Origin: Leifsonia xyli subsp. xyli str. CTCB07
GTDB taxonomy: Bacteria; Actinomycetota; Actinomycetes; Actinomycetales; Microbacteriaceae
Assembly: GCF_000007665.1 (NCBI RefSeq)
Contig: NC_006087.1
Location: 2,418,001 to 2,482,000 of the forward strand
DNA: 64,000 nucleotides
Reading direction: 5' to 3'
Part shown: positions 6,594 to 39,241 of the stretch, piece after piece
Layout: each line of letters opens with the position of its first letter
Position numbering within the stretch: the first letter of the stretch is position 1
Made by a program: the position numbers and the translations under genes
Notes under the pieces: model-generated
What the model was told of the DNA's origin: nothing
What the model saw: only the letters and a program-made list of their open reading frames with translations
Database searches by the model: none

Positions 6594-6813
6594 GTATCTC
6601 CTCACACGATAGTGGCCGAGGAGTCGAAGTCCGCTCCTTCCGGACAATGGTATTCCCCGTAGCCCGGTTACGGCCGGGGGATTCTCCCGCCGCACCCGGT
6701 CCGGTGTCCCCTCAGCGCGGGCCAGAGGAGACCGCCCGGTATGCCCTATGCTCGCATCCAGGCTTTCGCGCGTCCCTACCCGCTGCTGAGCCGTCTTGAG
6801 GAAAGGGGAGCCT

Positions 6814-7281
6814 GTGCCTTCGGTGTCTCGTGCCGTCGAGCTCCGCCCGGCGACCGCCGACGATGAGGCGTTCCTGCGCCGGGTGTTCCTGGACGCGCTC
6901 AGCGGAGCGGCCGGCACGCACTCCGGCCACCGCGATCCGGTCCTGACTCTACGCTACAGCTCCCACACCGGCGAGCGCCACGACCGCCATCCGGGCGCGA
7001 TGACCTCGATCATCACGGACGGCGGCGAGCCTGCAGGCTCGGTGACGGTCGACCGCAACGGACCCCGCATCCACCTCGTCGACATCACCGTGCTCACCGA
7101 TCGCCGCGGGCGCGGGATCGCCTCACGGGTGCTCGCCGACCTTCTCGCTGCGGGCGACCGGATGACCCTCTCGGTGTGGAGCCTCAACACGGCGGCCCGA
7201 CGGCTCTGCGAGCAGCACGGTTTCTCCGTGGTCGCCGAGCAGTTCGGCTATCTGCTGATGGCCACGGAGGCCGAGGGCTGA
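6814..7281 (+). CDS. GNAT-family N-acetyltransferase
   Basis: 155 residues. The frame opens at a TTG (6796), but that triplet lies just before a GAGGAAAGGGG ribosome site, so the GTG at 6814 is the better start. It begins with the typical VELRPATADDEAFLRRVF and has acetyl-CoA motif A (LTDRRGRGIASRVLADLL) near residues 95-112, then NTAARRLCEQHGFSVV, the usual motif B ending. It transfers an acetyl group to an unknown small molecule or protein amine. Single gene, convergent with clpB 6 bases away. Confidence 0.85.
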   Translation: MPSVSRAVELRPATADDEAFLRRVFLDALSGAAGTHSGHRDPVLTLRYSSHTGERHDRHPGAMTSIITDGGEPAGSVTVDRNGPRIHLVDITVLTDRRGRGIASRVLADLLAAGDRMTLSVWSLNTAARRLCEQHGFSVVAEQFGYLLMATEAEG

Positions 7282-7287
7282 CGGGCG

Positions 7288-9441
7288 CTACTCCCGCACC
7301 GGGATGACCGTGAGGTGGCCGCCACCCGGTTCGAGATCCACCCGGACCACGTCTCCGTCGCGCACCTCACCGGCTAGCAACGCGGTCGCGAGCCGGTCGT
7401 CGATCTCCCGCTGCATCAGCCGGCGCAGCGGACGAGCCCCGTAGATCGGGTCGTAGCCGCGCTCGGCGAGCCAGCGGCGCGCGTCCGGCGTGACCGCCAG
7501 CTCCAGCCGCCGCTCGGCCAGCCGGGCGACGAGCCGGTCGATGCCGAGCTCCACGATCTCGCCGAGATCCTCCTGCGTGAGGGCGGAGAACACGACCATG
7601 TCGTCGAGACGGTTCACGAACTCCGGCTTGAACGCCTGACGGACGGCCTGCAACACCGCTTCCTCGCGCTCGGTCACGTTCAGGACCGGGTCGACCAGGA
7701 ACTGACTGCCGAGATTAGAGGTCAGGATCAGGATGGTGTTGCGGAAGTCCACCGTGCGCCCCTGCCCGTCGGTGAGGCGGCCGTCGTCCAGCACCTGCAG
7801 GAGGACGTCGAACACCTCCGGGTGCGCCTTCTCCACCTCGTCCAGGAGGATCACGGAGTACGGGCGCCGCCGCACAGCCTCGGTCAGCTGGCCGCCCTGC
7901 TCGTAGCCGACGTATCCGGGAGGAGCGCCGACCAGCCGCGAAACCGAGAGCTTCTCCCCGTACTCACTCATGTCGATGCGGATCATCGCCTTCTCGTCGT
8001 CGAACAGGAAGGCGGCGAGCGCTTTGGCCAGCTCCGTCTTGCCAACGCCCGTCGGGCCGAGAAAGAGGAACGACCCCGTGGGCCGGTCCGGGTCCGAGAT
8101 GCCAGCGCGCGTGCGGCGCACGGCGTCGGCCACCGCCTGCGCCGCCGGTCTCTGTCCGACGACCCTCCGGCCGAGCTCGCTCTCCAGGTGCAGCAGCTTC
8201 TCAGTCTCGCCCTGCGTCAGCCGGGAGACGGGGATGCCGGTCCAGGCGGCCACCACAGCTGCGATGTCCTCGGCCGTGACCTGCTCGTTCACCATCCGCG
8301 GGTGGCCGTGCTCGGCCCGCTCGGCCTCCGCCAGCTCCCGCTCGATGTTCGGGATGGTCTCATACTCGATGCGGGACGCCTCCTGGTAGCGGCCGTCGCG
8401 CAGCGCGAGGTCGCGGGCCGTCTTGGCTTCGTCCAGCTGGCTGCGCAGCTCGCCGACGCGGGTGAGCGCCGCCTTCTCGGACCACCAGCGCTCCTGGAGC
8501 TCCGTCAGCTCGCGCTGCTGCTCGCCGAGCCGCTGCCGCAGCTGCTCGAGGCGCTCCTTGCTGGCGGCGTCCTTCTCTTTCTTGAGCGCGAACTCCTCCA
8601 GCTTGATCCGCTCGACCTGCCGCTGAAGCGTGTCGATCTCGACCGGCGCGGAGTCGATCTCCATCTTCAGCCGGCTGGCGGCTTCGTCGATCAGATCGAT
8701 CGCCTTGTCCGGCAGCTGGCGAGCGGTGATGTAGCGATTGGAGAGGGAAGCTGCGGCCACCAGCGCCGAGTCCTCGATGGTCACGCCGTGGTGCGCCTCG
8801 TAGCGGCCCTTGAGCCCGCGCAGGATGGCGACCGTGTCCTCCACGCTCGGCTCGCCCACGTACACCTGCTGGAAGCGGCGTTCGAGGGCGGCATCCTTCT
8901 CGATGAACTCGCGGTACTCGTCCAGCGTTGTGGCCCCGATGAGCCGCAGCTCGCCGCGCGCCAGCATCGGCTTCAGCATGTTCGACGCCGCGACGGACCC
9001 CTCACCGCCACCCGCGCCCATGAGGATGTGCAGTTCGTCCACGAAGGTGATGATCCGGCCCTCGGCGGCGTCGATCTCCTTGAGCACGGCCTTCAGCCGC
9101 TCCTCGAACTGGCCGCGGTACATAGCCCCGGCCACCAGCGCCGAGAGGTCGAGCGAGACCAGTTGTTTGTCCTTCAGCGAGTCGGCCACGTCCCCCGCGA
9201 CGATGCGCTGGGCCAGGCCTTCCACCACGGCGGTCTTGCCGACACCGGGCTCACCGATGAGCACCGGGTTGTTCTTGGTGCGTCGCGTGAGCACCTGGCT
9301 CACGCGACGGATCTCGGCGTCTCGTCCGATCACCGGGTCGAGCTTGCCGCTCTTGGCGATCTCGGTGAGGTTCACGCCGTACTGTTCGAGAGCGCTTTTG
9401 CCCTCCTCCTGGGTGGAGGGGGCGCCTTGCAGGTTCGCCAT
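7288..9441 (-). CDS. clpB: ClpB protein disaggregase, short form without the N-terminal domain
   Basis: 717 residues; start ATG at 9441 ([11 protein letters not shown]). AAA module 1 has Walker A GEPGVGKT and the FVDELH Walker B. The coiled-coil M domain follows ([19 protein letters not shown], about residues 300-420). AAA module 2 has [28 protein letters not shown] and [15 protein letters not shown]. Full-length ClpB has about 860 residues and an N-terminal Clp_N domain; here only some 20 residues precede [12 protein letters not shown]. With DnaK, DnaJ and GrpE it resolubilises aggregated proteins in the cytoplasm. A HAIR inverted repeat lies 28 bases upstream, implying HspR control together with the dnaK operon. 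Confidence 0.95.
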
Positions 9442-29450: not shown

Positions 29451-29524
29451 GCGAGTGTAGTTCAATGGTAGAACTTCAGCTTCCCAAGCTGATAGCGCGG
29501 GTTCGATTCCCGTCACTCGCTCCA
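29451..29524 (+). tRNA. tRNA-Gly (anticodon CCC)
   Basis: Acceptor stem GCGAGTG/CACTCGC, D-arm around GGTAGAAC, anticodon stem TCAGC/GCTGA with loop TTCCCAA giving anticodon CCC, T-arm GCGGGTTCGATTCCCGT, discriminator T and encoded CCA. An integrase gene begins 174 bases downstream, so the 3' half of this tRNA is the probable prophage attachment site. Confidence 0.95.
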
Positions 29525-29697: not shown

Positions 29698-30911
29698 GTG
29701 GCTAGCGTCCTTCCCAAACGCAACCCGTCCGGTGCGATTGTCTGGCGCGTCCAGTTCCGCATCAACGGCCGAATGAGCCAAGAGAGCTTCCCCGACGAAG
29801 ACGGTGCCCGCTCCTTCGGGCAGTTGGTCGATCGTGTGGGAGGGCAAGCCGCACGCCAGGTTCTGCGCGCCCGAGCATCCAAAGCGCACGACATGCCGAC
29901 CCTGCGGGAATGGACCGAACGTTACCTCGACCCACAGTCGGAAATTCTCACCGGCATCGAGCCCGGGACACGAGCCGGCTACCGATCCATCGCAGAGCGA
30001 TCCTTCCTGCAAGTCCTGGGCGACTACCCGCTCGACGCGATCGAGAAAACCGATGTCGGCCGATGGGTGGCATGGCAAGAGTCCCAACCCTCCACACGCT
30101 CCCGGACACAGACGGTCGCTGCGAAGACCGTCCGCAACTATCACGGGCTACTCTCGGCGGTGTTAGCCGCTGCGGTCGAGCACAAGCTTCGCGGTGACAA
30201 CCCGGCGTTCAAGACCCGCCTGTCCAAAGGACTCAAGCGGGAGGGTGTATTCCTCTCGCGTGAAGAGTTCGCAGTACTTGAGCACTCCATCCCGGCGCGA
30301 TATAGACCGCTCGTCCTGTTCCTCGCTGGCACCGGAACCCGATGGGGGGGGAAGCAACAGCGATCACGTGGGGTGATATCGCCTTCTCCTCGAACCCGCC
30401 GACTGTGCGTATCGAGAAAGCATGGAAGAAGTCCGAGAGTGGGGCGCCTGTTCTCAAGCATCCGAAGTCGCAGAAGTCGAAGCGCACCGTCTCGCTGTGG
30501 CCCGAAATCGTTCAAGCGCTGGGTTCACCGCAAGCAGGCGACCAGCTGGTGTTCCAGTCTGAACGGACGGGCACACATCTCTGGTATGGTCCATTCCGGT
30601 CACGCATATGGGTAGCGGCGATAAATGCCGCCAACGATCCCGAGAAGTGCGGGCCGCTTGGTCTGACACCGATCGGGAAACGCCCCAACATCCATGATCT
30701 ACGGCACACCCATGCCTCCTGGCTGATTGCGGCCGGAGCCCCGCTGCCGTACGTCCAAGCCCGGCTGGGGCACGAGGACATCCAAACCACCGTGAACCTC
30801 TACGGGCATCTCCTACCCGACGCGCACCACCAAATGGCGAACATCATGGCGGACGTTATGTCTGGTGTTCTCCCACGAATTGAACCAGCATCCTTAGAGC
30901 TCCTCGCGTGA
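29698..30911 (+). pseudogene. int: Prophage tyrosine integrase, frameshifted in a G8 tract
   Basis: GTG at 29698 after a GAGGTG site. N-terminal arm-binding region (RVQFRINGRMSQESFPDEDG), SAM-like core (TLREWTERYLDPQSEILTG), then the catalytic domain begins RPLVLFLAGTGTRW. Here eight G residues (30344-30351) put the rest, GEATAITWGDIAFSSNPP, in another frame. That second part has HDLRHTHASWLIAAGAPLPY and VQARLGHEDIQTTVNLYGHL, i.e. the H-x-x-R, H and tyrosine residues. Six or nine G would give a continuous 400-residue integrase. As written the enzyme lacks its catalytic tyrosine. Confidence 0.85.
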
Positions 30912-30949: not shown

Positions 30950-31321
30950 TCAGGAGGCCAGACGGTGGACGTTTATGTAAGTGCGCAACAGTCGGTGCGT
31001 CACCCCGAGTTCGGCGGCGAGTAGCTGTGGATGCCCGATCCAACCGAGATGGTCTCGTATCTCGGCGAAATCGATCAAGTTCTCGGCTGCGAAGCGATCC
31101 GCCTGTACCTCATGTTTCGGCCGATCATCCACGTGCCCATAATGCACATGACCCAGCTCGTGGGCGATGGAACATCGTGTATGCACAGACCTCATGCGCT
31201 CTTTGACGACTATCAGATTCCGGTCGGGGAGCCAGAGGGCGTTCTTCGTTCTGAGGGGGCGGTGGATGATCTCGATACCCATCTCTTCCGCGTGTTTGAA
31301 CGGGTCATAAGAGCCACCCAC
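30950..31321 (-). CDS. ImmA/IrrE-family metallopeptidase
   Basis: 123 residues. Zinc-protease motif CSIAHELGHVHYGHVDD (HExxH) with a following Q-ADRFAAENLI segment that supplies the third ligand region. This is the DUF955/ImmA family, which cleaves phage or mobile-element repressors. It is encoded directly downstream of repressor (i), 9 bases apart and in the same direction: the standard immunity arrangement in which ImmA inactivates the repressor on induction. Start ATG at 31321. Confidence 0.88.
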   Translation of the reverse strand: MGGSYDPFKHAEEMGIEIIHRPLRTKNALWLPDRNLIVVKERMRSVHTRCSIAHELGHVHYGHVDDRPKHEVQADRFAAENLIDFAEIRDHLGWIGHPQLLAAELGVTHRLLRTYINVHRLAS

Positions 31322-31330
31322 CTACTCCCT

Positions 31331-31702
31331 CTAGTAGTCTTCGTCATGATTCATTTCGGGGTCGCTCAACGCCGCCTGCCGCTCTTCACCCTCGATGTCA
31401 TCGAGGGTGAGCTCGTCGTTGCGCTTCCGGATGGGCTTTACCTTAGACGGAACCGATACCAAAGCTTGGCGCATCAGGCTTAACGTTTCAGTTCCGAGTG
31501 CAGAGGCCACCTGATCTAGATCGTTCATATTGAACGGCTTAATACCATTTAGCCGCTCGTAGGCATATGTCTTTGACATTGATGTATTAAAGGCGAGCCA
31601 ACGTCCGTCCGCCGCGCCCCCATGCTCTCGAACCAGCGCAAGCACATAGTCGGCAACTTGGCGAGCCGAGCCACCCGCGGACCCCATAGGTGTACGTCCC
31701 AT
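31331..31702 (-). CDS. Helix-turn-helix repressor (i), probable prophage immunity repressor
   Basis: 123 residues if started at the ATG at 31702. A -10-like TACCAT ends 6 bases upstream of it, with TTGCGT 18 bases further, so the mRNA is probably leaderless. A start at 31738 has no support. XRE-like helix-turn-helix around residues 28-70 (FNTSMSKTYAYERLNGIKPF, then NMNDLDQVASALG). The acidic C-terminal tail (LTLDDIEGEERQAALSDPEM) may be the part cleaved by the ImmA-like protease encoded next. Divergent from the Cro-like gene at 31779. Confidence 0.75.
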   Translation of the reverse strand: MGRTPMGSAGGSARQVADYVLALVREHGGAADGRWLAFNTSMSKTYAYERLNGIKPFNMNDLDQVASALGTETLSLMRQALVSVPSKVKPIRKRNDELTLDDIEGEERQAALSDPEMNHDEDY

Positions 31703-31743
31703 GTGTCCATGGTACTCAAATAAGAACAAATCACGCAAAGGAG

Positions 31744-31772
31744 TTGCGTTAGTTCGTAATTACGTTCATACT
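31744..31772 (+). promoter_or_regulatory. Promoter of Cro-like gene (i)
   Basis: TTGCGT (31744-31749), 17 bases, CATACT (31767-31772), then the ATG 6 bases later, implying a leaderless transcript. The palindrome CGTAATTACG lies between the two boxes and is a good operator candidate. Confidence 0.6.
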
Positions 31773-31778
31773 CGCCTT

Positions 31779-32027
31779 ATGGTCGTAATTGAGAACGTCT
31801 CCGCGAAGAAGATGGGGTCCGCAGTGAAGGCCGAAGCCGCCCGTCGCGGCATCTCGGTCTCCTCGCTCACCACAGTCCTCGGCCGCAGCAAACCATCTGT
31901 CTATCGCCGCATCAACGGCGAGGAACCGCTCGACATTGCAGAGCTTGACATGATCGGCCGACACTTCGGGATTGATCTGCTCACGCTCATCGCATCCGCC
32001 GAGCTGGAACCACGAGCGGTGGCTTGA
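31779..32027 (+). CDS. Cro-like helix-turn-helix protein (i)
   Basis: 82 residues. ATG at 31779; the frame is open 26 codons upstream but that region is promoter. Helix-turn-helix ISVSSLTTVLGRSKPSVYRR, then INGEEPLDIAELDMIGRHFG, similar in layout to the plus-strand proteins of the next two modules. No ribosome site, fitting a leaderless mRNA. Presumed antagonist of repressor (i) in the lysis-lysogeny switch. Its stop overlaps the start of the excisionase-like gene (TGATG). Confidence 0.75.
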   Translation: MVVIENVSAKKMGSAVKAEAARRGISVSSLTTVLGRSKPSVYRRINGEEPLDIAELDMIGRHFGIDLLTLIASAELEPRAVA

Positions 32028-32245
32028 TGGATACCGAAGAGGCCGTCACCCCCGTGCAGCTAGCCCGGCACCTCAACTGCTCCGTCGACAAGGTGCTTCG
32101 GATGGCGAAGACAAAGGAGATTCCATCATTCAGGATCGGTCGCCTATGGCGATTCTTCCCTGAACAAGTAGACGTAACCTTTCTCCGTGATCCGGACCCG
32201 TGGGCACAGTCGAATCAGTCCCGTTCTCGTCGGCGTTCTACCTAA
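32027..32245 (+). CDS. Excisionase/AlpA-like HTH protein
   Basis: 72 residues, coupled to the preceding gene. MerR-like winged helix of the HTH_17 family: VTPVQLARHLNCSVDKVLRM then KEIPSFRIGRLWRFFPEQVD, the standard excisionase/helix-turn-helix fingerprint. Likely directs excision with the integrase or regulates early genes. Basic Ser/Arg tail. Confidence 0.8.
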   Translation: MDTEEAVTPVQLARHLNCSVDKVLRMAKTKEIPSFRIGRLWRFFPEQVDVTFLRDPDPWAQSNQSRSRRRST

Positions 32246-32310
32246 CCTACCCCCGTCCTTTTCCATCCCCCCTCACATCAGTCGCCCCGGCCTGTTGGGC
32301 CGGCTAAGAA

Positions 32311-32363
32311 AAGAAGCGCGTTATGGATTACATCCCATTCGGTGTGTCAGTGGGCGGTGGTGC
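32311..32363 (+). repeat. Direct repeat copy 1 (ribosome site plus MDYIPFGVS start)
   Basis: About 46 of 52 bases match 33091-33143. Both copies contain AAG(A/G)AGCGCGTTATG followed by codons for M(D/N)YIPFGVS(V/A)GGG, the start of a small gene whose remainder differs. Each copy lies at the 3' edge of a minus-strand helix-turn-helix gene, marking module borders. Confidence 0.8.
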
Positions 32364-32621
32364 CAAGTCGCCTCTAGGGGCTGAGGCAGCTCGACGCATC
32401 AGTTCGAACGGGTTCATGTGGAGAACGTCCGCAAGTTGTCCGATGTCGTTTGTATTGAACGGCATCTCTCCGCGAAGACGTTTGTAGTAATAGTTCCGAG
32501 ACATGCCTGCTGCACCGTAGATAGCGGATGCGGTCCGCGAATCCATCCCGATAGCACGATCGATCTCCTCTGCGACTCTCCTGCTGAAATCGTTAGCTTC
32601 GCCGACTGCCCTCTTGACCAC
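32328..32621 (-). CDS. Helix-turn-helix repressor (ii)
   Basis: 97 residues from a GTG at 32621. A -10-like TACTAT ends 6 bases upstream and TTTGTA lies 17 bases before it, so it too is likely leaderless. The core IYGAAGMSRNYYYKRLRGEM then PFNTNDIGQLADVLHMNPFE closely parallels repressor (i) (TYAYERLNGIKPFNMNDLDQ), so these two are paralogues. Divergent from the plus-strand HTH gene at 32709. No ImmA-type partner adjoins it. The C-terminal residues are encoded by the antisense of the direct repeat. Confidence 0.7.
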   Translation of the reverse strand: MVKRAVGEANDFSRRVAEEIDRAIGMDSRTASAIYGAAGMSRNYYYKRLRGEMPFNTNDIGQLADVLHMNPFELMRRAASAPRGDLAPPPTDTPNGM

Positions 32622-32636
32622 GGGTACATAGTACCC
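32622..32636. promoter_or_regulatory. Operator-like palindrome at the repressor (ii) promoter
   Basis: GGGTAC-ATA-GTACCC, perfect 6-base arms, covering the -10 and start region of repressor (ii). Distinct in sequence from the palindromes of modules (i) and (iii). Confidence 0.6.
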
Positions 32637-32664
32637 ATCTGAGGGAAGATTACAAAATTTGTAT

Positions 32665-32697
32665 CCAACTAGGTTGCATTATTGGCCCCAACTAGGT
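32665..32697. promoter_or_regulatory. Direct repeats upstream of HTH gene (ii)+
   Basis: CCAACTAGGT at 32665-32674 and 32688-32697, 23 bases apart (about two helical turns), the second overlapping the -10-like GGTACT of the plus-strand gene. Confidence 0.55.
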
Positions 32698-32708
32698 ACT
32701 CTCATCGC

Positions 32709-32987
32709 ATGGAACCGGACATTACAGAGCAGATTACGCGGGCAGTCAAAGCCGAGTTAGCCCGTCGTGACCTCGATGGTGTGGATCTTGTCCCAGTGCT
32801 CGGGATGGGGAGGAACGCCGTGTACTCGAGGCTCCGACACGAGCGAGCTTTCGACATGGCTGAGCTTTCGAAGATCACGGTTTTCATGGGAATAACGATG
32901 AATGATCTGCTCGATTCCGCCCAGTACGGACTCCGGATCGCGGAGCGTGCGACGGGAGAGCACGCGCGGACGGAGACGGCCGCGTGA
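32709..32987 (+). CDS. Cro-like helix-turn-helix protein (ii)
   Basis: 92 residues; ATG at 32709 with GGTACT as -10 candidate 8 bases upstream and no ribosome site. Core AVKAELARRDLDGVDLVPVL then MGRNAVYSRLRHERAFDMAE, the same layout as (i)+ (AVKAEAARRGISVSSLTTVL, GRSKPSVYRRINGEEPLDIA), so the two are clearly homologous. Ends HARTETAA, the same ending as module (iii)+. Its stop overlaps the GTG of a tiny membrane protein gene. Confidence 0.7.
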   Translation: MEPDITEQITRAVKAELARRDLDGVDLVPVLGMGRNAVYSRLRHERAFDMAELSKITVFMGITMNDLLDSAQYGLRIAERATGEHARTETAA

Positions 32988-33106
32988 CTGGGTGGGTGTT
33001 GTCGGTGTTCGTGGTGGTTGCCGCGGCCGGGTTGTGGTCGATCGTTTTGGTTCAGCATTTGATTCTGAAGCAGACCCGGGAGTTGTTCAGAAGGAGCGCG
33101 TTATGA
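32984..33106 (+). CDS. Tiny membrane protein coupled to HTH gene (ii)
   Basis: 40 residues. GTG at 32984 overlaps the preceding stop (GTGA). One long hydrophobic helix, VLSVFVVVAAAGLWSIVLVQ, then a basic tail LKQTRELFRRSAL. Its last codons contain the AAGGAG site of the next MNYIPFGVS reading frame (ATG at 33103). A short phage membrane protein; might act in exclusion or regulate its partner. Confidence 0.55.
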   Translation: MTGWVLSVFVVVAAAGLWSIVLVQHLILKQTRELFRRSAL

Positions 33107-33143
33107 ATTACATCCCATTTGGTGTGTCAGCGGGCGGCGGTGT
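33091..33143 (+). repeat. Direct repeat copy 2 (ribosome site plus MNYIPFGVS start)
   Basis: Second copy of the 52-base element at 32311-32363, with about six mismatches, mostly silent for M(D/N)YIPFGVS. The frame from its ATG (33103) stays open to 33381 but runs antisense through the next HTH gene, so a real gene here is doubtful. Confidence 0.8.
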
Positions 33144-33393
33144 GTCTTGTTTCGGTCGCGAATCTCTCCTCGGCTCGCGCCACCACAACGTGAGGGTCGA
33201 TTCCGAGGCTCTCGCAGACCTTGTAGGCGATGGGGATGGGGATAGCGCGCTTGCCGGTGACGTAGTTGTCGAGCGCACTGCGGGCGATGCCGATCATGCG
33301 CGCCATGTCGGTGATGTTGCTTCCACCTGCTGCGATCTCGGCACGAAGCTGCTTGCCCACGGCCGCATTGAAACGGGCTGATCGCGTCTCCAT
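33127..33393 (-). CDS. Helix-turn-helix repressor (iii)
   Basis: 88 residues from the ATG at 33393 (METRSARFNAAVGKQLRAEI). Classic XRE domain: NITDMARMIGIARSALDNYV then TGKRAIPIPIAYKVCESLG. It belongs to a more typical XRE branch than repressors (i) and (ii), so the module was not simply copied. GATACT lies 9 bases upstream of the ATG; no ribosome site. Divergent from the HTH gene at 33488 over a perfect 8-base palindrome. Confidence 0.75.
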   Translation of the reverse strand: METRSARFNAAVGKQLRAEIAAGGSNITDMARMIGIARSALDNYVTGKRAIPIPIAYKVCESLGIDPHVVVARAEERFATETRHTAAR

Positions 33394-33403
33394 GCGAGAA
33401 AGA

Positions 33404-33427
33404 GTATCAGCTAATCGAGGCTGATAC
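33404..33427. promoter_or_regulatory. Operator-like palindrome of module (iii)
   Basis: GTATCAGC-N8-GCTGATAC, perfect arms, centred between the two divergent start codons and overlapping the -10 candidate of repressor (iii). Confidence 0.65.
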
Positions 33428-33487
33428 GTAGTCAAACAGGTAATTTTTCCCCTTGTATGTCCTCAAATGGAGAGGTATTGTCTACGT

Positions 33488-33730
33488 ATGAATACACAGA
33501 CGGTGAGGCAAATGGTGGCTTCTGCGGTCACATTTGAGCTTGGTCGAGCTGATCGATCGAAGCGGTGGCTGTCAGAGAAGACGGGCATCCCATACTCAAC
33601 CCTCGACCGGAGACTGAAAGGTCAAAAGGACTTCACTTTCACCGATCTTGCGAACATAGCGAACGTACTCGGAGTGTCACCGTCTGTGTTCACCCCCTCT
33701 GTTTTCGCGCGGACGGAGACGGCCGCGTGA
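33488..33730 (+). CDS. Cro-like helix-turn-helix protein (iii)
   Basis: 80 residues. ATG at 33488, 12 bases after GGAGAGG. Core DRSKRWLSEKTGIPYSTLDR then RLKGQKDFTFTDLANIANVL. Ends FARTETAA like (ii)+, with identical DNA over the last 25 or so bases, so the 3' ends of modules (ii) and (iii) share ancestry although the repressors differ. Its stop overlaps the GTG of another tiny membrane protein. Confidence 0.7.
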   Translation: MNTQTVRQMVASAVTFELGRADRSKRWLSEKTGIPYSTLDRRLKGQKDFTFTDLANIANVLGVSPSVFTPSVFARTETAA

Positions 33731-34266
33731 TCCCGTTTTGGGTGCCGTTTGCTGTTACTGCTGCTGTTGCGAGCATCGTGTTTCTTGCTTTGAAGGGCTT
33801 CGTTAACCACTGGTCACCGTTCGGGGGGGACCAAGTGATGGTCAACCGAACCCCTCGGGCATCCCAGGTCTCTGTATCGAGCTACGGCCCGGCTTCTCCC
33901 GGGTGGGACTCCTTCGTGTTCGCTTTAGCGGACTTCGAGCTGGAAGGTTTTGGCTCCTGGGTTTCCGAGCGGGGTGAGCCACTGCAGGAACACGTCAATG
34001 CTGGCGTGATAGTCACCCCGAACAGCATCACCTCCGCCCATACCGAAAACGAGGATGGGTTGAAGGCTCTCGTTAGCGCGGTTCTCGATCACCTGATCGA
34101 GCGCGACAGACCGGTGCTGTCCGCCAACGGGTCCGTCATCCCACCATTCACGCTTGCTGATGTGCTCACCCGTGACAACGACGGTCACATTGTTCGGCGC
34201 GTCTGCGCCGTGATTGGTGATGATAAGCAGGGGCCGACTCGCAATCCCACTCGACGGCCCACTTGA
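33727..34266 (+). CDS. Tiny membrane protein coupled to HTH gene (iii); long antisense extension doubtful
   Basis: GTG at 33727 overlaps the previous stop. The first 36 residues make one hydrophobic helix (VPFAVTAAVASIVFLALKGF) and a short tail, like the partner of module (ii). The frame then runs on to 34266 through the antisense of the next gene, which is not convincing. A G7 tract at 33823-33829 is suspicious: with G6 the frame would end TK-stop at 33838, giving a 37-residue protein like its counterpart. I believe only the 5' part. Confidence 0.4.
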   Translation: MIPFWVPFAVTAAVASIVFLALKGFVNHWSPFGGDQVMVNRTPRASQVSVSSYGPASPGWDSFVFALADFELEGFGSWVSERGEPLQEHVNAGVIVTPNSITSAHTENEDGLKALVSAVLDHLIERDRPVLSANGSVIPPFTLADVLTRDNDGHIVRRVCAVIGDDKQGPTRNPTRRPT

Positions 34267-34480
34267 TGGAAACCTGTTCGCTCTTCTGCGCACGCTCCCG
34301 CTGGTGGAGCGTGTGCGCATTCTCACTGAGTTTGTTCGCGTGCTCGGCAATCTTGTTCGCTCTCTCGGCCAGGTGGCGGGCATTCTTCGCGCTGACATTG
34401 CCCATCGAGCCGATCACGACCCCGCTGACACCGGTTAGCACGGCGACAACGTTAGTGACCCACTGGGCCGTGTCAGCCAC
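33925..34480 (-). pseudogene. Membrane-anchored Ig-like prophage accessory protein, one frameshift
   Basis: Starts ATG at 34480: MADTAQWVTNVVAVLTGVSG, a signal anchor, then a basic-acidic helical stretch (ARHLAERANKIAEHANKLSE) and KSEQVSIKWAVEWDCES. Near 34236 one extra base shifts the frame. It continues RPLLIITNHGADAPNNVTVV to 33925, a beta-sandwich-like domain where N-G-x-A-x-NV is common in surface-facing phage proteins. About 184 residues in all. Minus-strand position amid plus-strand genes suggests a lysogenically expressed accessory gene (moron). Function unknown. Confidence 0.6.
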
Positions 34481-34511
34481 CTACACCCCCTACCAAAAAG
34501 AAGAAACACCC

Positions 34512-34528
34512 CCCGGTGGCACCGGGGC
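34512..34528 (+). other. Hairpin before a ribosome site (short copy)
   Basis: CCCCGGTG-G-CACCGGGG followed by CGGTTCAGGAAGGAA. The same core and AGGAAGGAA recur before the antirepressor gene at 35377-35414, so it is a repeated 5' leader element. Confidence 0.55.
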
Positions 34529-34551
34529 GGTTCAGGAAGGAACGAAGCCCT

Positions 34552-35376: not shown

Positions 35377-35406
35377 GAGACGCCCCGGTGGCACCCGGGG
35401 CGTCTC
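35377..35406 (+). terminator. 12-bp perfect hairpin directly before the antirepressor ribosome site
   Basis: GAGACGCCCCGG and CCGGGGCGTCTC around a 6-base loop; AGGAAGGA follows at once and the ATG is 14 bases past the hairpin. It may end the lipoprotein mRNA or act as a leader structure controlling antirepressor translation. No T-run, so a plain terminator is uncertain. Confidence 0.6.
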
Positions 35407-35420
35407 AGGAAGGAATCACA

Positions 35421-36203
35421 ATGAGTTCCACGGAGATTATACCGTTCACCTTCGAGGAGGTGAACGTCCGTACCGTCCTCGTTGACGGTGAGCCCTGGTT
35501 CATCCTCCGGGATGTGTTGAGCGTCCTCGGCCTGTCGAACCCGACCGAGGCTGTCCGCTCGCTCGATGAAGACGAGTTCAGTACTACTGAACTCAGCCTC
35601 GACGGACAACGCCGCAACTACTACCTCGTCAACGAGCCAGGGCTGTACTCGCTGATTCTTCGAAGCCGGAAGACCGAAGCTCGCGCGTTCAAACGCTGGG
35701 TGACGCATGAGGTGCTCCCGCAGATCCGTCGGACGGGTTCCTACTCGGTCGTTCCGGCCGACGATGTCGCTCTCCCGCAGAACTATGTGGAGGCGTTGGA
35801 GGCGTTGTTGGTGCGGGAGAAGGCGAACCAGCAGCTCATTGTTGAGAACGCGGGTTTGGTTCCGCGTGCGGGTGCGTGGGATGCGATCGCCTCAGCGGTG
35901 GGTGACTACTCGGTTGGGGATGCGGCGAAGATCCTGTCCCGGGCGGGGATTCCCACCGGCCCGCAACGCTTGTTCGCCCAGTTGGAGGGAATCCGGTGGG
36001 TGTATCGCGGTGGGGATGGGAAGTGGCGCGCCTACGCGGAGCGGGTGGAGAAAGGCTACCTGGCGGAGAAGGCCCAGTTCCACCACCACCCCGCAACCGG
36101 GGACCTCGTGCTCGACGCCCCGCAGGTGCGGGGCACCGTGAAAGGCGTGGACCGGTTACGGCAGCGTCTCCATGTTGGGGCGCTCACGGCGGTAACCGCA
36201 TGA
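35421..36203 (+). CDS. Phage antirepressor (BRO-N and ANT/KilAC domains)
   Basis: 260 residues. N-terminal BRO domain: VRTVLVDGEPWFILRDVLSV then LGLSNPTEAVRSLDEDE and LYSLILRSRKTEARAFKRWV. C-terminal ANT domain: SVGDAAKILSRAGIPTGPQR and WVYRGGDGKWRAYAERVEKG. Such proteins bind repressors or DNA and favour lytic growth. Start ATG at 35421 with AGGAAGGA. It ends with a 4-base overlap to the next frame and opens the early lytic operon. Confidence 0.88.
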   Translation: MSSTEIIPFTFEEVNVRTVLVDGEPWFILRDVLSVLGLSNPTEAVRSLDEDEFSTTELSLDGQRRNYYLVNEPGLYSLILRSRKTEARAFKRWVTHEVLPQIRRTGSYSVVPADDVALPQNYVEALEALLVREKANQQLIVENAGLVPRAGAWDAIASAVGDYSVGDAAKILSRAGIPTGPQRLFAQLEGIRWVYRGGDGKWRAYAERVEKGYLAEKAQFHHHPATGDLVLDAPQVRGTVKGVDRLRQRLHVGALTAVTA

Positions 36204-37309: not shown

Positions 37310-37503
37310 TGAACGATGTGATGCGGACGGTTGTGGGCATTGTCTATGGGCCACGGTTGACCGGCCGTGACCTTCCGCCACGACCCGGCGGCCATGACGA
37401 CAGTGTGGCTGCTGCTGGTGGTGGTGGTCTTGGTGACCGGTGGTATGTCGACAACCTCGTCCGCGGGGACGGCGGGGATGGGATGCCGGAGGGTGGCTCG
37501 TGA
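37309..37503 (+). CDS. Small ORF of uncertain frame
   Basis: ATG at 37309 overlaps the previous stop (TGATG) and gives 64 Gly/Asp-rich residues (MNDVMRTVVGIVYGPRLTGR). The same DNA in another frame, from an ATG at 37393, encodes MTTVWLLLVVVVLVTGGMST, a convincing membrane helix. One indel may have split a single small membrane-protein gene, or the second frame may be the true gene. Confidence 0.35.
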   Translation: MNDVMRTVVGIVYGPRLTGRDLPPRPGGHDDSVAAAGGGGLGDRWYVDNLVRGDGGDGMPEGGS

Positions 37504-38435
37504 CGGCGTATGAGCGTGTCGATGTCGTCTCGGACACGCCCGAGTGGTTGGAAGAGCGACGGCGCAGCATCGGAGCCTCCGAGGTGGCCGCGGTGATAGG
37601 TCTGTCGCGGTTCAGCACAGCCTTGGATGTCTACAAGAGCAAGCTCGGTGTGGACGCTCCCTTCGACCCGGTGCTCGCGTTCATCGGGCACCGGTCGGAA
37701 CCCATCATGCATGCGTGGGTCGAGGAGTTCTCGCGGGCCCAGGTGAGCCTCGAGCCGGGTTTCATGGCCCGCTCGACCCAGTGCCCGATTCTGCACGCTT
37801 CCTTCGACCGCATCAGCCGGAACCCATTCCTCACATGGCAGTTCAAGACTGCGCATCAGTACGCGGGGCATCACTGGGATGAGGGGGTGCCGACCGACAT
37901 TCGGGTGCAGGTGCAGGCGGAGATGTTCGTTGCTGGAACGCAGCGCGCCGGGGTGGTGGTGTGGATTGGTGGGCGGGAGTTCCGCCTGTTCTGGGAGAGG
38001 CGCGATGACGGGTTTATCCGCGAGCACATGCTCCCGGCCGTCACCGAGTTCTGGGAGCACGTGCAGACCGGGCAGTCGCCGCTGCCGACGACGCTCGCCG
38101 AAGTCGCGGAGGTGTTCCCCACCGACCCGGGCACCGTCCTCGAACTCCCTGAGGCTGCGTTCGAGGTGCTGGAGCGCATCACGGTCCTGGGCGGCGACAT
38201 TCAGGCGCAGGAGGCCGAACGCGACGCCCTGAAGGTGGCGCTGGCCGAGTTCGTCGGCGGCGCGGAGACCCTCACCTATGACGGTCGCCCGGTCGCGACG
38301 TGGAAGACCCAGAAGGGGCGTGCGTCGTTCAACAAGCGCGCGTTCGAGGATGACCATCCGGACCTTGTTGCCGCCTACACAACCCAGGGCGCACCGTTCA
38401 AGGTCCTGCGCCGACTGAAGGAGAAGACGCAATAA
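37500..38435 (+). CDS. YqaJ-family viral exonuclease (recombination)
   Basis: 311 residues from a GTG at 37500. N-terminal EWLEERRRSIGASEVAAVIG is the YqaJ signature; the nuclease core has HASFDRISRNPFLTWQFKTA (D..E/Q-x-K) and VQVQAEMFVAGTQRAGVVVW. A 5'-3' exonuclease that resects DNA ends for the RecT-like annealing protein encoded next. It ends CAATAA, where RecT seems to have lost its overlapping start. Last part is helical (GGDIQAQEAERDALKVALAE). Confidence 0.88.
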   Translation: MTAYERVDVVSDTPEWLEERRRSIGASEVAAVIGLSRFSTALDVYKSKLGVDAPFDPVLAFIGHRSEPIMHAWVEEFSRAQVSLEPGFMARSTQCPILHASFDRISRNPFLTWQFKTAHQYAGHHWDEGVPTDIRVQVQAEMFVAGTQRAGVVVWIGGREFRLFWERRDDGFIREHMLPAVTEFWEHVQTGQSPLPTTLAEVAEVFPTDPGTVLELPEAAFEVLERITVLGGDIQAQEAERDALKVALAEFVGGAETLTYDGRPVATWKTQKGRASFNKRAFEDDHPDLVAAYTTQGAPFKVLRRLKEKTQ

Positions 38436-38455: not shown

Positions 38456-39241
38456 GTGGCGGTGAAGAAGAACCCGACGATTGAGGACTACCTGATCAAG
38501 TATGAGCCGGAGTTCCAGCGGGCGTTGGGGGCGTCGATGGACGCGGCTAAGTTCGCTCAGGACGCCCTGACCGCGATCAAGCAGAACCCGAAGATCGGCC
38601 ACTCCGACCCCCGTTCCCTGTTCGGTGCCCTGTTCCTGGCTGCGCAGTTGAAGCTCCCGGTGGGTGGGCCGCTCGCCCAGTTCCACCTCACCACCCGCAC
38701 GGTCAAGGGGAACCTGACCGTCGTCCCGATCGTCGGCTACGGCGGCTACGTGCAGCTCATCATGAACACCGGCCTCTACTCCCGCGTGTCCGCGTTCCTG
38801 ATCCACGCCGGCGACTACTTCGTCACCGGAGCCAACAGCGAACGGGGCGAGTTCTACGACTTCCGCAGAGCTGACAGCGACCGCGGCGAGGTCAAGGGCG
38901 TCATCGCCTACGCGAAGGTCAAGGGGCACAACGAGTCCTCCTGGGTGTACATCGACGCCGAGACCATGCGCGCCAAACACCGCCCCAAATACTGGGAGTC
39001 CACCCCGTGGGCTGACGACGCGGGCGAGATGTTCAAGAAGACCGGCATCCGCGTCCTCCAGAAGTACCTGCCCAAGTCGGTTGAGTCGCTGAACGTCGCC
39101 CTCGCTGCGTCCGCCGACCAGGCAATCGTCCGCAAAGTCGACGGTGTTCCCGACCTCGACATCCAGCACGACCGCGACACCGAAACCGTCGCCGTCCCCG
39201 AACAGCCCGTGTCCGTCCCACAGCCGGGAGACGAAACATGA
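38456..39241 (+). CDS. recT: RecT-family single-strand annealing protein, start codon apparently lost
   Basis: 261 residues from the GTG at 38456, which has no ribosome site. The RecT domain is intact: PKIGHSDPRSLFGALFLAAQ, TTRTVKGNLTVVPIVGYGGY and MFKKTGIRVLQKYLPKSVES. In frame upstream are ITDLSHAA codons beginning ATA at 38432, 9 bases after AAGGAG, exactly where an ATG overlapping the exonuclease stop (ATGA) would be expected. A single G to A change would give both the present ATA and the present TAA stop. Expression is therefore uncertain. Works with the YqaJ exonuclease in phage recombination. Confidence 0.85.
   Translation: MAVKKNPTIEDYLIKYEPEFQRALGASMDAAKFAQDALTAIKQNPKIGHSDPRSLFGALFLAAQLKLPVGGPLAQFHLTTRTVKGNLTVVPIVGYGGYVQLIMNTGLYSRVSAFLIHAGDYFVTGANSERGEFYDFRRADSDRGEVKGVIAYAKVKGHNESSWVYIDAETMRAKHRPKYWESTPWADDAGEMFKKTGIRVLQKYLPKSVESLNVALAASADQAIVRKVDGVPDLDIQHDRDTETVAVPEQPVSVPQPGDET

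Follow-up and report, generated by a model that had tools for sequence, protein, structure and literature searches.

A possible superinfection-immunity array of stacked, captured repressor-Cro pairs behind the primary switch of a Leifsonia xyli prophage

The stretch of DNA considered here, which we call the window, comprises 64,000 nucleotides of Leifsonia xyli subsp. xyli str. CTCB07 (positions 2,418,001 to 2,482,000 of contig NC_006087.1) and contains a prophage of about 37.5 kb whose immunity region holds three divergent pairs of small helix-turn-helix (HTH) regulatory genes. The genome to which the window belongs consists of one contig of 2,584,158 bases, and that of its sister, G022, of 2,686,418 bases. 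The prophage is inserted at a tRNA-Gly gene, of which the last 28 nt (29497-29524) recur at 67038, beyond the window, and its recognizable content includes a two-frame integrase, an M78 peptidase, the immunity region, Ant, RecE, RecT, terminase, portal, major head protein and endolysin. The gene order, with minus-strand genes marked as such, is integrase, M78 (minus), repressor (i) (minus) facing away from Cro (i), the excisionase gene xis, repressor (ii) (minus) facing away from Cro (ii), an open reading frame (ORF) of 40 aa, repressor (iii) (minus) facing away from Cro (iii), other ORFs, and then Ant, RecE and RecT. The features of the immunity region are the following.

30950..31321, minus strand: M78 (ImmA/IrrE-like) peptidase, adjoining repressor (i) (PF06114 2.6e-12; phrog_87 1.5e-20)
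31331..31702, minus strand: repressor (i), class A, with a 43-residue tail past the HTH core; primary switch (phrog_4583 3.1e-4)
31703..31778: presumed operator region of (i), intergenic
31779..32027, plus strand: Cro-like (i) (phrog_4583 3.1e-10)
32024..32245, plus strand: excisionase-like HTH_17 protein, xis (PF12728 1.2e-8; phrog_66 1.3e-5)
32253..32362: linker behind xis together with the left border of cassette (ii), wholly or partly conserved in the other four elements
32328..32621, minus strand: class A repressor (ii) with a short tail; the border contains its last codons (phrog_4583; model with a mean predicted local distance difference test, pLDDT, of 80.7)
32622..32708: predicted operator region of (ii), in which two sites, 32661-32676 and 32684-32699, are conserved (sequence comparison)
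32709..32987, plus strand: Cro-like (ii) (phrog_4583 3.5e-7; model pLDDT 90.5)
32963..32987: right border, copy 1, the 3' end of cro (ii) (direct-repeat comparison)
32984..33106, plus strand: hydrophobic 40-aa ORF overlapping the cro (ii) stop, 97% identical over 36 aa to an ORF of element L018, without family match
33091..33142: left border, copy 2 (copy 1 is 32311-32362)
33127..33435, minus strand: repressor (iii), class B, short tail, with a possible ATG start at 33393 (phrog_4583; Pfam above the curated cut-off)
33394..33487: presumed operator region of (iii), containing GTATCAGC-8-GCTGATAC
33488..33730, plus strand: Cro-like (iii) (phrog_4583 8.7e-19)
33706..33730: right border, copy 2, the 3' end of cro (iii)
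33727..34266, plus strand: ORF overlapping the cro (iii) stop, the final 151 aa of which recur unchanged in L019, an element of the same genome
33810..34542: 733-bp stretch matching at 100% the DNA behind the lone cassette vi of L019

The three pairs had been proposed in an original prediction made from the sequence alone; their coordinates hold, and a family search with all six regulators led throughout to the same phage repressor family, phrog_4583 (E 3e-4 to 9e-19). In Pfam only the two proteins of pair (iii) exceed the curated cut-off, the remaining matches lying mostly below it, and PADLOC returned only partial matches to HTH and M78 domains, the best (9.6e-9) to the M78 protein. Structures were modelled for repressor (ii) and Cro (ii), each of which is predicted to fold into five helices; a fold search of the PDB with the Cro (ii) model retrieved XRE-type regulators, controller proteins, SinR and DdrO (best E 3.2e-3, template modelling score 0.75) and no match at E of 0.001 or below. 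The proposed paralogy of pairs (i) and (ii) is confirmed by identities of 35% over 78 residues between the repressors and 43% over 61 between the Cro proteins, and repressor (iii) does belong, as had been thought, to another HTH branch, pair (iii) being closer to two pairs of the sister genome, named iv and viii below. The description of the pairs as consecutive is correct for (ii) and (iii), which are directly adjacent, but not for (i), which is separated from (ii) by the excisionase-like HTH_17 gene (32024-32245).

Pairs (ii) and (iii), which we call cassettes, have their borders in common. The shared last codons of the two Cro genes, already recognized in the original prediction, form a right border of 25 nt at 100% identity, and a second common border, which had escaped notice, lies on the left and extends over 52 nt at 90% (32311-32362 vs 33091-33142). 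Beyond both borders no further direct DNA match between the two cassettes was found at the thresholds used. The borders are partly coding, since the 3' ends of the minus-strand genes reach into the left one and those of the plus-strand genes into the right one. Among the genomes of 99 relatives, the 110-bp left linker was found in two, at eight places (three in the window's genome and five in G022), all of them within five elements; likewise, a 19-nt pattern of the left border, with up to 3 mismatches allowed, occurs at seven places in two genomes, all in the elements, against none for the backward control. The exact boundary-DNA pattern had no match in viral contigs.

In all five elements the linker stands behind an xis-like gene, and every one of them also has its own primary pair ahead of xis. 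Four were read through and hold one, one, two and four cassettes, respectively, behind xis, as listed here together with the fifth.

Window element: cassettes ii, iii
L017: cassettes iv, ii, v, vi
L018: cassette vii
L019, elsewhere in the window's own genome: cassette vi
L028: cassette viii, then transposase-like ORFs; element not read through

The cassettes behind xis have one and the same orientation across the five elements, and the junctions vary between elements yet leave both genes of a cassette intact. The comparison of L018 with the window places a one-cassette state beside a two-cassette state: the left 110 bp are 87% identical, the right end of the cassette with the small ORF is 92.5% identical over 187 bp and the downstream 59 bp are 94.9% identical, and the 738 bp that carry cassette (iii) in the window correspond to 69 bp in L018. 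A search for single pairs and for pairs in other orders, suggested along with the original prediction, found cassette vi alone in L019 and cassette (ii) in a different array in L017. The latter carries (ii) at 98.7% identity over 677 bp together with a 125-bp remnant of the end of (iii) at 92%, so that (ii)-(iii) was probably an older neighbourhood; furthermore, because a second genome has cassette (ii) in a different array, the duplication of the region by an assembly artefact, which had been named as a possible refutation, is unlikely. Cassette vi, alone in L019 and fourth in L017, is 96.1% identical over 672 bp between the two, and the 733 bp at 100% shared by the window and L019 behind their cassettes point to recent exchange. 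Cassette v (L017:7124-7997) represents a third class (phrog_16278, phrog_9103), although its Cro shares the C-terminal end of class A Cro proteins, and it is therefore probably a chimera joined at the right border.

For the nearest relatives of the cassettes 22 pairs were compared, and the best seven per query by repressor score were considered. In this set the nearest relative of (ii) is the primary switch of another Leifsonia genome, G011 (65% for the repressor and 68% for Cro), followed by G251 (54/54) and G051 (44/49), and that of (iii) is found in an uncultured-virus contig, L029 (54% and 53%). M78 and ant genes adjoin the G011 module, in which an xis-like ORF was seen by eye, and integrase, M78-like and HTH_17 genes lie near that of L029. 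Only in the case of ii, iii and vi do repressor and Cro have the same top relative, which fits the transfer of these pairs as units. Pattern searches beyond this set retrieved 10 stretches in viral contigs for repressor (ii), none encoding a relative, and 514 stretches in genome contigs for Cro (ii), none of them a relative.

These relationships bear on the simplest origin, a local tandem duplication of pair (i) followed by divergence. The homology of (i) and (ii), both of class A, is what such an origin would leave, but we consider it hardly credible: (ii) shares 65/68% identity with a distant module and only 35/43% with its neighbour, and (iii) is of a different class and, among the pairs compared, closest to one in a viral contig. 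Furthermore, (i) and (ii) are separate from each other and from the vi/vii group in a tree of 27 class A rows, and a clade of (i), its near relative P0008 and (ii) was rejected in the approximately unbiased (AU) test with p 0.0006. For this test the near-duplicates P0003 and P0018 were removed, because P0003 is nearly identical to (i) and any clade omitting it fails trivially. On the identities and the tree, local duplication was thus rejected. The class B tree, weakly supported as a whole, places repressor (iii) beside L029 at 85/89. The serial capture of pairs from elsewhere, as envisaged in the original prediction, is instead supported at the sequence level by the common borders, the foreign single-module relatives and the sister elements with one and four cassettes.

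All three pairs have the layout of a divergent repressor/Cro switch, with two HTH regulators facing apart and operator-like sites between them, which are conserved for (ii) and weaker for (i) and (iii). Alignment of the (ii) gap with its counterparts in G011, G251 and G051 shows conserved blocks, and a 16-nt site is exact in G011 and G251; when 3 mismatches are allowed, the 64-kb window contains just two occurrences of this site, each within the (ii) gap, and a third site, with four mismatches, lies in the (i) gap. G011 and G051 have the segment MSRNYYYKRLRGE of repressor (ii) unchanged and G251 has it with one residue different, whereas repressor (i) differs. The palindrome or repeat that had been ascribed to each gap fares less well, an arm equal to the longest one being reached in 41/300 shuffles for (i), 46/300 for (ii) and 4/300 for (iii). 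Palindromes are thus weak evidence, and more weight attaches to the (ii) sites being conserved at three other loci, so that separate sites are supported for (ii) and weakly supported for (i) and (iii). Some class B gaps share a short GTAGYCAAA-like stretch, a weak sign. A consensus scan of both strands gave 4 promoter-like sites (shuffle mean 1.5, sd 1.0) and 6 terminator-like ones (3.2, sd 1.6); the four promoter-like sites are consensus matches only and are not used as evidence.

Pair (i) has the layout of an ImmR/ImmA-type switch: an XRE-type repressor with a 43-residue tail and an adjoining M78 gene, both on the minus strand. The protease gene likewise adjoins the repressor gene in the integrative element ICEBs1 and in the Listeria phage phi10403S. 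According to two reports, ImmA of ICEBs1 cleaves ImmR at F95-M96, C-terminal of the HTH, and MpaR of phi10403S cleaves a CI-like repressor downstream of the HTH (PMC8960796, PMC6872733). Unlike these switches, cassettes (ii) and (iii) have no adjoining M78 ORF and their repressors lack the long tail, ending 19 and 13 aa past the HTH core. Tail and protease are associated more widely: among 72 rows, comprising most of the repressor-type matches, a tail of at least 30 aa is present in 17/17 repressors with an M78 gene directly downstream and in 13/55 others, two of these 13 (L084, L094) having an overlapping M78 ORF, and with alignment scores of at least 60 the counts are 13/13 and 8/43. These rows, which include repressor viii and leave cassettes ii, iii, iv, vi and vii outside, are not independent, several being near-identical Arthrobacter phages, and the M78 start was set by hand for L029 and L078; a smaller hand-picked set held 12 linked repressors, 5 from cassettes and 17 unlinked. 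The repressors of ii, iii, iv, vi and vii have tails of 7-19 aa, so that five of the six cassette repressors measured are without a long one. Among the relatives of (ii), tail and M78 are both present in G011 and G251 and both absent in G051. Lacking the long C-terminal tail, the captured repressors may escape the protease, and we infer that the M78 enzyme may be unable to remove them.

The remaining features of the prophage relevant to the interpretation are these.

29451..29524, plus strand: tRNA-Gly (ccc), attachment site, its 3' 28 nt repeated at 67038 (repeated 24-mers at 29497-29501 match 67038-67042)
29698..30911, plus strand: tyrosine integrase in two overlapping frames (29698-30615, 30342-30911), phrog_1 split over both ORFs
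35421..36203, plus strand: antirepressor Ant (Bro-N and KilAC; PF02498 2e-22, PF03374 4.7e-21, phrog_130 7.9e-75)
37440..38435, plus strand: RecE-like exonuclease (phrog_434 2.5e-57)
38456..39241, plus strand: RecT-like annealing protein (phrog_148 3.8e-43)

The integrase has its N-terminal part in one frame and its catalytic part in the other, and the prophage may accordingly be unable to excise, or the record may contain a sequence error. Two further observations concern the DNA behind the cassettes. A second repeated linker precedes early genes (34508-34542 vs 35380-35415, 89%) and is also present in L017, L018 and L019; further early genes may likewise be swapped at such linkers. A minus-strand ORF at 34166-34480, 100% identical in L019 and 42% identical over 97 aa to an ORF of L017, has no family match and is, judged by eye, a candidate for a membrane protein expressed in lysogeny.

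We propose, with about an even chance of being right, that the immunity region is a stacked superinfection-immunity array in which captured repressor-Cro pairs stand behind the prophage's own switch. The latter would be ImmR/ImmA-like and comprise repressor (i), the M78 protease gene, Cro (i) and Xis. A slot behind xis, flanked by the conserved linker DNA, would receive repressor-Cro pairs of other temperate phages, probably by recombination at short border homologies and perhaps through the phage's own RecE/RecT; this route is plausible in view of the study by De Paepe, which attributes the mosaicism of lambdoid phages to Rad52-like recombinases acting at diverged homologies (PMC3945230). Unlike in lambdoid mosaicism, the unit exchanged here would be a whole immunity pair, and such units would accumulate in tandem. 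Captured pairs (ii) and (iii) keep their intergenic regions, without a protease partner or long tail, and the lysogen would make their repressors constantly, so that incoming phages relying on the same operators would have their early promoters silenced. This would come at a cost, as the captured repressors would also span the prophage's own early region. Immunity to several phages, which the original prediction had also considered, is the function that we would favour. A bolder version, which we hold to be rather doubtful, sees an evolving repertoire, in which recombinases stack protease-blind foreign master repressors in the fixed slot behind xis and the lysogen acquires a growing set of heritable immunities unaffected by induction signals.

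Several points weigh against the proposal. Repressor viii, although it belongs to a cassette, has a 38-residue tail, and the loss of the tail may predate capture, since the (ii) relative G051 is already tail-less and without M78. Repressor and Cro of i, iv and vii point to different top relatives among the 22 pairs, although the mismatch in vii, whose Cro is nearest to Cro (ii), fits an exchange at the right border inside Cro. The right-border pattern, with up to 3 mismatches, is a weak marker, occurring at 12 places in two genomes, of which 5 lie in the elements, with 2 for the backward control. As a genome-wide marker, the 16-nt motif is near chance: it was found in 4/299 family genomes, twice in such gaps, against one genome for the backward control, and among 14 viral contigs it lay in a repressor/Cro gap in one, the other 13 showing no such pair in the DNA examined. 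Cassette (ii) differs between the two genomes by 0 synonymous and 4 nonsynonymous changes, which are uninformative on selection. Finally, the split of the integrase between frames could mean a grounded prophage with an idle array.

A different use of the same genes, which we think unlikely, is that the added pairs act as extra locks of the prophage's own lysis-lysogeny circuit, the repressors blocking read-through so that all must be lifted for induction, as in a multi-step switch or a grounded prophage. The position of the cassettes behind xis in one orientation in five elements would suit such locks, as would repressors without the protease-linked tail, but unrelated, variable cores in one slot, present in one, two or four copies, fit capture for specificity better. 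How often additional pairs occur is relevant here. The survey covered 40 loci, 39 of the family and one of the order, each spanning about 10 kb at most and hand-chosen around matches; at least one divergent pair was present in 30 and two distinct pairs in L063 only, which speaks against locks. The survey script counted a second pair in L074 double, missed the pair of L072 because of an over-long start and does not detect pairs like those of class v. The assumption that one pair is the norm agrees with the survey, but not with the five L. xyli elements or with Arthrobacter phages. In the latter, 10/11 have a second repressor-strand HTH gene beside the repressor-Cro pair and no shield role is needed to account for it, which favours locks; these 11 phages were picked because they matched and give no estimate of frequency. 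In Maja, Zucker, Bauer, Sarge, Bridgette, Constance and others, a repressor of class A type is followed by a class B repressor-Cro pair, the same class order as in (ii)-(iii). Unlike the cassettes of the window, both units precede xis and lie close to the integrase. A full class A pair was detected with hidden Markov models in Zucker and Maja only, and repressors (ii) and (iii) do not group with those of the Arthrobacter phages in the trees, of which that of class B is weakly supported.

Since Ant is encoded downstream of the cassettes (35421-36203), these could instead control ant, the stacked repressors silencing the antirepressor gene of the lysogen and that of superinfecting relatives, in the manner of the immI locus of phage P22; we regard this as improbable. 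P22 immI is, as here, a second regulatory locus besides the primary repressor and associated with an antirepressor. Its regulators Mnt and Arc are ribbon-helix-helix proteins; those of the window match HTH families, and P22 has one such locus, whereas the window has HTH pairs that are stacked and swapped. The presence of Mnt and Ant in the second immunity locus of P22 is described in two reports (PMC6550527, PMC8022706). A closer parallel is Propionibacterium phage E6 (cluster BW), with a second divergent repressor-cro pair in its early region, which its authors call unusual and take to suggest complex immunity; an ant gene directly follows each of the two pairs, unlike in the window, and the portion of the paper available to us makes no mention of shared borders or stacking (PMC5831693). 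The second pair of E6 corresponds to genes 34/35, and the best model for gene 34 is that of a class B repressor, like (iii). In the E6 locus (L133) we observed two successive units of repressor, cro and ant, the second ant being 32% identical over 199 aa to that of the window. Against ant control, several ORFs, some on the opposite strand, lie between cassette (iii) and ant, and the antirepressor gene of L017 (9329-10168) has its start and body in different frames. Furthermore, six other Microbacteriaceae loci with a window-like ant have it behind the Cro of their sole pair, so the linkage of ant is not special to cassettes.

The additional pairs could also be neutral leftovers of phage recombination, parked and functionless, which we deem quite improbable. 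Signs of decay agree with it: the split integrase, the frame-split ant of L017, the remnant of (iii) in the same element and the transposase-like ORFs, seen by eye, of L028. In this last element (reverse complement, 6650-9157) the viii repressor lies on the minus strand and the transposase-like ORFs occupy the expected position of Cro. However, all six regulator genes of the window are open, differing junctions spare both genes of the cassettes and the (ii) sites are conserved. Moreover, cassette vi, compared between L017 and L019, has 11 synonymous differences per 143.7 sites and 6 nonsynonymous ones per 432.3 (ratio 0.18, p 0.0006), and is by this comparison under purifying selection.

Returning to a stacked array of captured immunities, extra repressor-Cro pairs and bipartite immunity are already known. 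The features that seem to be new are the bordered slot, the stacking of up to four cassettes, whole pairs whose nearest relatives are foreign, and repressors that lack the tail linked to the protease; in the open-licence literature, judged by title and the start of the abstract, no bordered and stacked repressor-Cro cassettes were found. How temperate phages change and widen the specificity of their immunity is poorly understood, and here related elements display the unit, the slot and the borders together with arrays of one, two and four units, which makes the capture of immunity testable. The link between tail and protease suggests a simple rule by which a phage switch may become a permanent shield; for cassette (ii), the phages that it should stop are predicted by its conserved sites.

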